Assembly (NCBI GenBank): GCA_017992055.1
Contig: JAGOPK010000010.1
Coordinates: 44,559 to 108,558, forward strand
Origin: Burkholderiaceae bacterium
GTDB lineage: Bacteria; Pseudomonadota; Gammaproteobacteria; Burkholderiales; Burkholderiaceae_C
DNA length: 64,000 nucleotides
Reading direction: 5' to 3'
The position numbers were made by a program, and so were the translations under genes. This document shows, piece after piece, positions 61,648-64,000 of the stretch. The first letter of the stretch is position 1. Every line of letters starts with the position of its first letter. The notes under the pieces are model-generated. The model worked only from the letters and a program-made list of their open reading frames with translations. It did no database searches and had not been told where the DNA came from.

Positions 61648-63123
61648 TCAGAACCCTTCCTCGACCAGCTCGGCGGCGCGGATCAGCGCCCGCGCCTTGT
61701 GCTCGGTCTCTTTCCATTCCAGCTCGGGCACCGAGTCGGCCACCACGCCGGCGGCGGCCTGCACATACAGCGTGTTGTTCTGCACGATGCCGGTGCGGAT
61801 GGCAATCGCCAGGTCCATGTCGCCGGCAAAGCTCAGGTAGCCGCAGGCGCCGCCGTAGATGCCGCGCTTGACCGGCTCCAGCTCGTCGATGATTTCCATC
61901 GCGCGGATCTTGGGCGCGCCGGTCAGCGTGCCGGCCGGGAAGGTGGCCTTGAGCACATCCATGTTGCTCATGCCGTCCTTCAGCAGGCCTTCGACATTGC
62001 TGACGATGTGCATCACATGCGAGTAGCGCTCGACCACGAAGGCCTCGCTGACCTTGACCGAGCCGGTCTTGGCGATGCGGCCGATGTCGTTGCGCGCCAG
62101 GTCGATCAGCATCAGGTGCTCGGCGCGCTCCTTCGGGTCGGCCAGCAGCTCGGCCTCGGTGGCCTTGTCGGTCTCGGGCGTGGCGCCGCGCGGGCGCGTG
62201 CCGGCCAGCGGCCGGATGGTGACCTTGTCGCCGTCGGGCGTGTGCTCGTGCCGCACCAGGATCTCGGGGCTGGCGCCGACGATCTGGAAGCCGCCCATGT
62301 CGTAGAAGTACATGTAGGGGCTGGGGTTCAGCGAGCGCAGCGCGCGGTACAGGCTGAGCGGGCTCTCGGTGTAGCGCTTCTTCAGGCGCTGGCCGATCTG
62401 CACCTGCATCATGTCGCCGGCGGCGATGTAGTCCTTGCTCTTGTGCACCGCGGCCAGGTAGTCGGCCTTGTCGAACTCGCGCTCCACCGAGTGCGAGGCG
62501 CCGCGCTTGACCGCCGGCGCGGTGACCGAATAGCGCAGCTTGTCGGCCAGTTCGGCCAGGCGGCGCTTGGCCTTGAAATAGGCCTCGGGCTGGCCGGGGT
62601 CGGCATAGACGATCAGGTACAGCCGGCCCGACAGGTTGTCGATGACCGCCAGCTCCTCGGTCTGCAGCAGCAGGATGTCGGGCGTGTCCAGGCCACCGGG
62701 CTTGGCGGTCTTGGCCAGCTTGGGCTCCATGTAGCGCACCGCGTCGTAGCCGAAGTAGCCGGCCAGGCCGCCGCAAAAGCGCGGCAGGCCGGGCCGCAGC
62801 GCCACCTTGAAGCGGGCCTGGTAGGCCTCGACGAAGTCCAGCGGGTTGCCCTCGTGGCGCTCGACCACCTCGCCGTCGGTCACCACCTCGGTGACGAAGC
62901 CGGTGGCGCGCAGCAGGCTGCGCGCCGGCAGGCCGATGAAGGAATAGCGACCGAAGCGCTCGCCGCCGACGACGGACTCCAGCAGAAAGCTGTGCTTGGC
63001 GCCGCCGGCCAGCTTCAGGTACAGCGACAGCGGCGTTTCCAGATCCGCGAAGGCCTCGCTGAGCAGCGGGATGCGGTTGTAGCCCTGGGCGGCCAGGCTC
63101 TTGAATTCGAGTTCGGTGATCAC
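61648..63123 (-). CDS. trpE: anthranilate synthase component I
   Basis: TrpE makes anthranilate from chorismate. The GTG at 63123, with GAGG upstream, starts the conserved (M)[19 protein letters not shown]; 491 residues follow. The feedback site region LLES and the catalytic parts [31 protein letters not shown] and [16 protein letters not shown] are present. A Trp-rich leader peptide about 125 bases upstream suggests attenuation. Longer in-frame start at 63159 is not conserved. Confidence 0.97.
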
Positions 63124-63159
63124 GATGGGGCCTCGATCAGGCACCCGCGGCGCGCGCAC

Positions 63160-63185
63160 CCTGGCTCATCTGGGCCAGGCACGGC
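63160..63185 (-). promoter_or_regulatory. hairpin in the trpE leader
   Basis: On the minus strand CCTGGC, eight bases, GCCAGG forms a stem between the leader peptide and trpE. The CCTGGC arm is repeated within the Trp-codon region of the leader peptide, so the downstream GCCAGG arm has alternative partners, a requirement for attenuation. No long T-run follows. Confidence 0.4.
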
Positions 63186-63248
63186 AACGCGGGACGGGAT
63201 GGGGAAGGGCACGGGCGCGGTCAGGACAGACCGGCCGGCACGCGGAAA

Positions 63249-63329
63249 TCAGACCGACGGATGCCAGGGTCGCCAGGGCCAGGCCCCCCGGTCGGCGGAC
63301 CCTTCAGTCAGTTTGCGTGCGGTGAACAT
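63249..63329 (-). CDS. trpL: trp operon leader peptide
   Basis: Reading the minus strand from ATG 63329 gives 26 residues and a TGA. The first part is MFTARKLTEGSADRG and the second AWPWRPWHPSV, with tryptophan at 17, 19 and 22 and the stop four codons after the last Trp. Trp is the rarest codon, so three in six residues just upstream of trpE is hard to explain by chance. The peptide would let ribosome stalling at Trp codons report tryptophan level. CGGTC/GACCG and CCTGGC/GCCAGG segments downstream allow alternative pairings. No clear ribosome site precedes the ATG, which is close to a TACACT -10 box. Confidence 0.72.
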   Translation of the reverse strand: MFTARKLTEGSADRGAWPWRPWHPSV

Positions 63330-63339
63330 CGTGCCGGGC

Positions 63340-63345
63340 AGTGTA
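63340..63345 (-). promoter_or_regulatory. possible -10 box for trpL-trpE
   Basis: TACACT on the minus strand lies 11 bases upstream of the leader-peptide ATG. It forms one end of the palindrome at 63342-63363. A -35 match 17 bases upstream is weak, so the call is tentative. Confidence 0.4.
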
Positions 63346-63363
63346 GCAGCGCGCGCTGCTACA
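63342..63363. promoter_or_regulatory. 22-bp perfect palindrome between trpL and the next gene
   Basis: The left arm TGTAGCAGCGC and right arm GCGCTGCTACA are exact complements with no spacer. The ends give a TACACT box on the minus strand and a TACAGT box on the plus strand, so the element may serve divergent promoters or bind a dimeric repressor. Spacing differs from the HexR-like dyads. Confidence 0.5.
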
Positions 63364-63397
63364 GTCGGCGCCCGCCCTGCATCCGAAAGAGCACGCC

Positions 63398-64000
63398 ATG
63401 CACCGTCGTCTGCCGTCGCTTGCGATCTTCCTGCTTGCGCTGTGGGCGGGCGGCGCCGCGATGCCGGTGGCGGCCCAGGCCTTCGACACCGCCGGCGTGC
63501 GCTACGAGCCCCAGGTCAGCGTGGGCGGCACGCCGCTGCTGCTGAACGGCGCCGGCGTGCGCTACAAGCTGGTGATCAAGGTCTACACCGCCGGCCTGTA
63601 CCTGACGGCCAAGGCTGCCAGCACCGAGGCCGTGCTGGCCGCGCCCGGGCCCAAGCGCATCCATGTGGTGATGCTGCGCGAGATCGATGCCAACGAGCTG
63701 GGCAAGCTGTTCACCCGCGGCATGCAGGACAACGCGCCGCGCGAGGAGTTCGTCAAGTCCATCCCCGGCACCATCCGCATGGGCGAGATCTTCGCGGCCA
63801 AGAAGAAGCTGCTGCCCGGCGAGAGCTTCAGCGTCGACTGGACGCCCGGCAGCGGCACCGTGGTGCGCGTCAACGGCAAGCCCATGCACGACCCCATCCC
63901 CGAGCCCGAGTTCTTCAACGGCCTGCTGCGCATCTGGCTGGGCAAGTCGCCGGCCGACCACCTGCTGAAGGATGCGCTGCTGGGCAAGCCTCCCAAGAGC
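63398..64000 (+). CDS. chalcone isomerase-like exported protein (cut by window edge)
   Basis: The 201 visible residues start with a signal peptide (LAIFLLALWAGGAAMPVAAQA). Then comes the chalcone isomerase-like fold seen in bacterial periplasmic proteins: GVRYEPQVSVGGTPLLLNGA, YKLVIKVYTAGLYL, and a C-terminal IPEPEFFNGLLRIWLGKSPA. Bacterial members have no proven isomerase activity, so function is open. It is divergent from the trp operon and has no stop inside the window; family size suggests that few residues are missing. Confidence 0.85.
   Translation, partial: MHRRLPSLAIFLLALWAGGAAMPVAAQAFDTAGVRYEPQVSVGGTPLLLNGAGVRYKLVIKVYTAGLYLTAKAASTEAVLAAPGPKRIHVVMLREIDANELGKLFTRGMQDNAPREEFVKSIPGTIRMGEIFAAKKKLLPGESFSVDWTPGSGTVVRVNGKPMHDPIPEPEFFNGLLRIWLGKSPADHLLKDALLGKPPKS

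Follow-up and report, generated by a model that had tools for sequence, protein, structure and literature searches.

A tryptophan-codon leader ORF upstream of trpE in Burkholderiaceae as a candidate attenuator with a Shine-Dalgarno-like tract before its Trp codons

The trp attenuator is, as a kind, classical: the trpL leader of Escherichia coli carries an intrinsic terminator, and a leaderless trpL is already known in Sinorhizobium meliloti. For the latter, the excerpted text of PMC7298713 describes a trpL attenuator (rnTrpL/peTrpL) whose RNA has its 5' end at the leader ATG. A short upstream ORF that acts through Rho has been reported for CruR of Bordetella pertussis, where, in the excerpted text of PMC9426467, a stalled ribosome keeps Rho off the transcript and its release permits Rho termination.

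The locus analyzed here lies in the window, i.e., the whole stretch of 64,000 nucleotides, where a conserved short ORF with regulatory Trp codons was found upstream of a trp gene. The reading that we favor, with a probability of roughly 0.6, is that this ORF encodes a real trp leader peptide controlling trpE by ribosome-mediated attenuation, with a near-leaderless start, a Shine-Dalgarno (SD)-like tract and an output through Rho in the clade of the window. The features to which the text refers are as follows.

63340..63345, minus strand: putative -10 box TACACT, with TGC before it at 63348-63346 (from the sequence); predicted transcription start at about 63333
63249..63329, minus strand: trp leader peptide ORF running from 63329 to 63249, 26 codons with a TGA stop, translated as MFTARKLTEGSADRGAWPWRPWHPSV (from the sequence and comparison with relatives)
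63284..63289, minus strand: SD-like purine tract GGGGGG in codons 14-16, separated by 2 nt from the first Trp codon (from a synonymous-site test and anti-SD energy)
63279..63281, minus strand: Trp codon 17, conserved
63273..63275, minus strand: Trp codon 19, followed by Arg20, conserved
63264..63266, minus strand: Trp codon 22, not conserved
63124..63248, minus strand: spacer from the leader stop to trpE, without a T-run, C-rich and G-poor at about 63222-63180 (by eye), a candidate Rho-loading region
61648..63123, minus strand: trpE, anthranilate synthase component I, GTG start (from a domain match and the trpE search)

A preliminary description of this DNA had noted, just before trpE, a 26-codon frame with Trp at codons 17, 19 and 22, and its coordinates, its codons and the identity of trpE were all confirmed. 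The trpE product matched the domains Anth_synt_I_N and Chorismate_bind, the GTG at 63123 that starts the gene is conserved, and 125 nt separate it from the leader stop. On the same strand, trpE is followed in order by a fatty acid desaturase gene (PF00487, 60666-61622, minus strand), a class-I glutamine amidotransferase gene that by its position is trpG, and a beta-eliminating-lyase gene (PF01212, 58979-60049, minus strand). The desaturase gene sits between trpE and trpG within the trp cluster, and the lyase gene lies before a trpD-like frame; the frames beyond it, recognized by eye, are presumably trpD and trpC. A chalcone-isomerase-like gene at 63398 is divergent from the leader.

Conservation of the leader was followed by a trpE search of the window's own genome and 35 genomes of the same family, with 24 more of the order. 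In two of the own and family genomes the contig lacked the 5' end of trpE, which left 34 trpE-anchored family loci, and W17 and W19 are kept within G-A-W-x-W-R upstream of trpE in all of these except L034 (33/34). The exact 20-nt core CGGGGNGCNTGGCCNTGGCG was present in 224 of 299 family genomes (207 of the 267 good ones), and a reversed control pattern in none. These two results together argue that the leader frame did not arise by chance. Amongst the 75 family genomes without the exact core, 72 were put through the trpE search and trpE was obtained in 64; a variant core was present in 36 of the 54 newly readable upstream regions and the W-x-W core was absent in the other 18, three of which (L213, L257 and L265) have shortened upstream DNA, so that the system appears to be dispensable in some lineages.

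Beyond the family but within the order, 3 of 23 loci (L035, L038 and L049) have a related core, and the exact core was found in 14 of 300 genomes sampled over the order, i.e., 8 of 9 from the window's family and 6 of 291 others, the latter by string only. A collection of named genomes held, among the matches listed, at least 118 exact-core loci, with trpE within 1.5 kb downstream in at least 70 and not in at least 48. The loci with both core and trpE include, among the matches listed, Burkholderia, Paraburkholderia, Caballeronia, Pandoraea, Variovorax, Acidovorax, Rubrivivax and Rhodoferax; records of other phyla in this collection carried the core string without trpE, again among the matches listed. 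The window's own genome has the exact core once and three places with one mismatch, and a two-mismatch pattern is unspecific there (62 matches in all against 10 for the control). A plasmid search gave no match.

The analyses that follow use three sets of leaders. The 136 leaders comprise 100 selected by pattern with trpE (30 from the scan of family genomes and 70 from the named collection) and 36 that are trpE-anchored; the 172 leaders add the 36 variant cores. The 69 family leaders (33 and 36) were located starting at trpE; the search expression fixed W-x-W and restricted codons 15, 16 and 20, and any third base was allowed at codons 14 and 15. The sets of 136 and 172 include a few duplicates of one genome or sequence and their members are related, and the counts are accordingly not of independent events. 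With these sets, the three Trp codons first pointed out fared differently: W17 and W19 are conserved, and W22 is found in only 24 of 172 leaders, those of the Burkholderia type among them. The expectation of conserved Trp codons with variable flanks was borne out, with a conserved part (RGAWPWR) that is wider than the Trp codons. The conserved W17 and W19 upstream of trpE support the design of ribosome-mediated attenuation that had been proposed. The predicted near-leaderless start, the SD-like tract and the intrinsic terminator of Burkholderia-type relatives go beyond that proposal.

Some loci depart from this pattern in other ways. L220 has Cys in place of Trp19, and L261 and L262, of one genus of the same family, have a differently built Trp-rich leader with a GWWRVSFWWC end ahead of trpE. 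Loci from other Burkholderiales families (L036, L039, L042, L043, L044, L052 and L055) have short leaders of a W-R-W-R-like kind that end about 60-90 nt before trpE.

By usual -10 geometry, an ATG that lies 6-11 nt from the box falls at roughly +1 to +6. Of the 136 leaders, 115 have a box of the form TA[ACG][AG]CT upstream of the core; the next ATG follows within 6-11 nt in 111 of the 115 boxed leaders (111 of all 136), and in 113 of the 115 the first ATG after the box shares the frame of the Trp codons. This spacing predicts a leaderless or near-leaderless start. The window has a gap of 10 nt, which would place the ATG at about +5 as predicted from the box spacing, and we take the TGC before TACACT to be of the extended -10 type. 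The box is absent in 21 of the 136 leaders, including all 13 of the Burkholderia type, for which no start is predicted, and a consensus promoter scan requiring both hexamers found no promoter at the leader. A trp transcription start downstream of 63329, which had been named as the finding that would speak against the leader, is made unlikely by the -10 box directly 5' of the ATG, together with core-less loci that keep TACACT near trpE. In five such loci from three genera (L234, L236, L240, L243 and L244) the leader core is gone and the box still lies close to trpE; these appear to be natural losses of the attenuator.

Synonymous choice just ahead of the Trp codons is strongly skewed. Codon 14 in the 69 family leaders is CGG (46), CGA (6), CAG (15), CAA (1) or TGG (1), never CGC or CGT, and codon 15 is GGA (54), GGG (11) or GAG (4), never GGC or GGT. 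Pyrimidine-ending codons are found for 0 of 52 Arg14 and 0 of 65 Gly15, against 84% and 89% in the background of 58 trpE genes from these loci (CGR is 16% of CGN and GGR 11% of GGN in this background). This absence points to an SD-like purine tract just 5' of the Trp codons; L035, outside the family, has CCT at codon 14 and is an exception to the purine rule.

Pairing energies were calculated with an assumed anti-SD sequence, as two patterns searched for the 16S tail found none in the window's assembly. Codons 14-16 of the 69 leaders have a mean energy of -7.5 kcal/mol against -3.4 kcal/mol for random synonymous versions, 5% of which are as strong. Over the 172 leaders, which are mostly pattern-selected so that the tract is partly set by the way they were picked, the minimum lies 5-6 nt before W17 with a mean of -7.3. 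In the same set the mean is -0.27 upstream of the leader ATG, with 2% at or below -5, indicating a leader ATG without an SD, and -6.1 upstream of the trpE start. The SD of trpE itself (median spacing 6 nt, 152 leaders) served as a ruler for the tract, which sits 0 nt before W17 in 142 of 172 leaders; the best fit has the P site on codon 19, with codon 18 at the short end. By this ruler a ribosome held here would have Trp19 in its P or A site. Across the family, the choice of synonymous codons at positions 14-15 is constrained, and we infer that ribosomes pause at the Trp codons. The generality of pausing at internal SD sites is disputed. Such pausing has been reported for Caulobacter in the excerpted text of PMC4117421, and PMC6107199 reports SD-like motifs to be little depleted in coding regions.

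The ending of the leader differs amongst relatives. In 20 of 20 leaders from the window's genus the longest T-run is 2-3, four Ts in a row occur in 0/20, and no intrinsic terminator was found between leader ORF and trpE in this genus by the T-run criterion; the initial remark that a clear T-run is absent thus holds in the window and throughout these 20 leaders. A six-T run was present in 11 of the 13 Burkholderia-type leaders (two of the 13, L174 and L188, were assigned to the type by sequence), with a hairpin GCTGAAG...CTTCGGC or CTTCAGC before the T-run, and five or more Ts were found in 19 of the 139 leaders that belong neither to the window's genus nor to the Burkholderia type.

These terminators in Burkholderia-type relatives would fit a classical trp attenuator in the window as well, one with alternative stems and a weak or unusual intrinsic terminator such as a GC-rich hairpin without a U-tract. 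Single folds of Acidovorax/Variovorax-type leaders (L060, L061, L062, L063, L116, L148 and L190) gave a GC-rich hairpin right after the leader stop, and in the window a single terminator-like site (63267-63254, 5 pairs) overlaps the leader stop, against an expectation of 0.1. Against this reading stand the lack of four Ts in a row in the genus, a post-stop region with neither a conserved stem nor covariation support (12 of the 20 genus regions aligned), and the fold of the whole leader. Stems sought in 63124-63330, as first recommended, were no better than those of shuffled sequences (z -0.13; 83 of 200 shuffles fold as well). The leaders are GC-rich and poorly alignable beyond the stop, which limits the search for alternative stems, and we regard the classical arrangement as unlikely here. 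Separately, a candidate hairpin in the core (CCGGGG/CCCTGG) was rejected, with 92.3% of cells paired against a shuffled mean of 92.3% and a covariation score of 0.264 against 0.261. Pairing of the purine tract with the C-rich spacer was rejected too (mean z 0.08, 54% of shuffles as strong).

The spacers are C-rich. Their (C-G)/n averages 0.082 in the 136 leaders and 0.129 in a group of 23 made up of 20 genus leaders and 3 from near relatives, and is 0.104 in the window, compared with a mean of 0.001 in 118 control intergenic regions, all from named relatives, none from the window's genome, and with relatedness ignored. The YC value of the window spacer is 0.272 against a mean of 0.139 for these controls, and the share of the 118 relatives' regions that reach the window value, kinship ignored, is 1% for YC, 3% for C fraction, 3% for the best 60-nt C-G and 9% for (C-G)/n. 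A C-rich, G-poor candidate rut region was found by composition near the end of the uORF, and Rho is encoded. TrpR was found in 0 of 60 genomes in a search that included an E. coli control. From composition and by analogy, termination in the window's clade is probably carried out by Rho. In folding calculations for the 20 genus leaders, setting a ribosome on W17, on W19 or on the stop altered the accessibility of spacer Cs no more than it did in shuffles.

The same kind of calculation bears on translational attenuation, in which the position of the ribosome on the leader would open or close the trpE start site. With the ribosome stalled, openness of the trpE SD rises slightly on average (mean +0.028), by more than 0.1 in 20 of 136 leaders, and falls by as much in 8 of 136. 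The mean effect is near zero and the window gives -0.06; accessibility of the trpE start is barely altered by ribosome position in the 136 leaders, and the 125 nt between leader stop and trpE also speak against this mechanism, which is quite improbable. Of the earlier suggestion of Rho-dependent or translational control, the Rho part accordingly gains support from the spacer's C-richness relative to the 118 controls, and the translational part, in which ribosome position would control the trpE start, does not. A frameshift carrying translation through the spacer was rejected, as the +1 and +2 frames run for 104 and 101 nt, against 120 and 114 nt in shuffled sequences, which makes them shorter if they differ at all.

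The core itself is constrained as protein. Ala16 is present in 69 of 69 family leaders with four codons in use (GCC 41, GCT 19, GCG 5, GCA 4), and Arg20 is found in 68 of the 69, encoded by any of the four CGN codons. Conserved residues with free third bases indicate that A-W-x-W-R is kept as amino acids. Such conservation next to the Trps could also point to a nascent peptide, R-G-A-W-P-W-R, that arrests the ribosome, with Trp supply setting the arrest, and for CruR of Bordetella the excerpted text of PMC9426467 describes the use of a conserved arrest motif that precedes a Rho-dependent terminator. Position 14 holds R or Q, and position 18 varies between P, L, S and others, which would be loose for an arrest motif. 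Induction by Trp, as for TnaC, would work in the wrong direction in a biosynthetic gene; we consider an arrest peptide highly doubtful. That the core is a protein-binding site in DNA or RNA with an incidental reading frame deserves next to no credence in spite of the very high nucleotide conservation of the 20-nt core, given the free third positions of Ala16 and Arg20, the in-frame first ATG after the box in 113 of 115 leaders, and Phe at codon 2 in 88 of 89 distinct leaders with an ATG exactly 48 nt before W17, with both codons used (TTC 68, TTT 20).

In the ribosome-mediated attenuation that we favor, transcription would start at or a few bases before the ATG, as the -10 box suggests, and the ribosome would begin on a leaderless or near-leaderless 5' end. 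On reaching Ala-Trp-x-Trp-Arg, it may be slowed at the Trp codons by the SD-like tract behind it pairing with the 16S anti-SD. With ample Trp-tRNA, the ribosome would run to the stop and leave, and the untranslated C-rich spacer would let Rho terminate before trpE; with scarce Trp-tRNA, it would stay on W17 or W19 close behind RNA polymerase, and trpE would be transcribed. The role of the leader as a Trp sensor is well supported by the comparison of sequences, and in Burkholderia-type relatives the same sensor is seen to be followed by an intrinsic terminator. More tentatively, and as a possibility that we hold at clearly less than even odds, the SD-like tract in an otherwise SD-less, near-leaderless ORF may be a selected, built-in mRNA-rRNA brake that parks the ribosome on the Trp codons and sets the sensitivity, with the output exchanged in evolution (an intrinsic terminator in the Burkholderia type and Rho in the clade of the window).

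Searches of databases and literature gave no description of this leader. None of the 4227 Rfam families reached its gathering score in 62900-63600 of the window (the six matches up to E 10 scored far lower), only tRNAs were matched by Rfam in 15 relatives, and Pfam and NCBIfam HMMs gave 0 families for three leader peptides, which at this length are hard for HMMs. Such leaders may be mentioned in older comparative surveys of attenuators by Vitreschak (2004) and Merino (2008). A full-text literature search gave no description of a betaproteobacterial trp leader in the titles and abstract starts among the matches listed, and the strings 'RGAWPWR' and 'GAWPWR' do not occur in the full-text literature searched. 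The excerpted texts of PMC2965389 and PMC4833913 make no mention of a betaproteobacterial trp leader. Within the literature searched, neither the betaproteobacterial RGAWPWR leader, nor its SD-like tract, nor a change of terminator type behind one sensor was found described.

The leader is a concrete candidate for Trp control of trpE in betaproteobacteria in which TrpR was not detected (0/60 genomes). Since synonymous choice before the regulatory codons is constrained across a family, the leader could also serve as a natural test of the importance of internal SD-like sequences for ribosome pausing. Whether a single sensor can work with two kinds of terminator would emerge from a comparison of Burkholderia-type with window-type leaders.

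Amongst known and related systems, the short W-R-W-R-type leaders of other Burkholderiales families are likewise Trp-rich short ORFs upstream of trpE. Their Trp codons lie about 60-90 nt from trpE, compared with about 95-260 nt in the window's family, they have no RGAWPWR core, and anti-SD energy falls below -5 near the Trp codons in 1 of 8 examined (L043). With E. coli trpL, whose frame has an exact match annotated trpL, the leader shares a short ORF with Trp codons followed by Arg. E. coli also has TrpR, which was found in none of the 60 genomes searched here, and in its trpL the strongest anti-SD pairing falls on the Trp codons (-7.9 at +1), with only 0.4 to -3.8 at -8 to -3. The S. meliloti trpL, in the excerpted text of PMC7298713, similarly has clustered Trp codons ahead of trpE and is leaderless, where a near-leaderless start is predicted here; it differs in having consecutive Trp codons and a terminator, whereas the present leader has W-x-W, an SD-like tract and a C-rich spacer, with no T-run in the window's genus. 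CruR, like this leader, is a betaproteobacterial uORF. According to the excerpted text of PMC9426467, it detects copper, unlike a Trp leader, by way of a nascent protein that carries CXXC and RAPP motifs, and Rho action has been demonstrated for it; the leader described here may work likewise through Rho.
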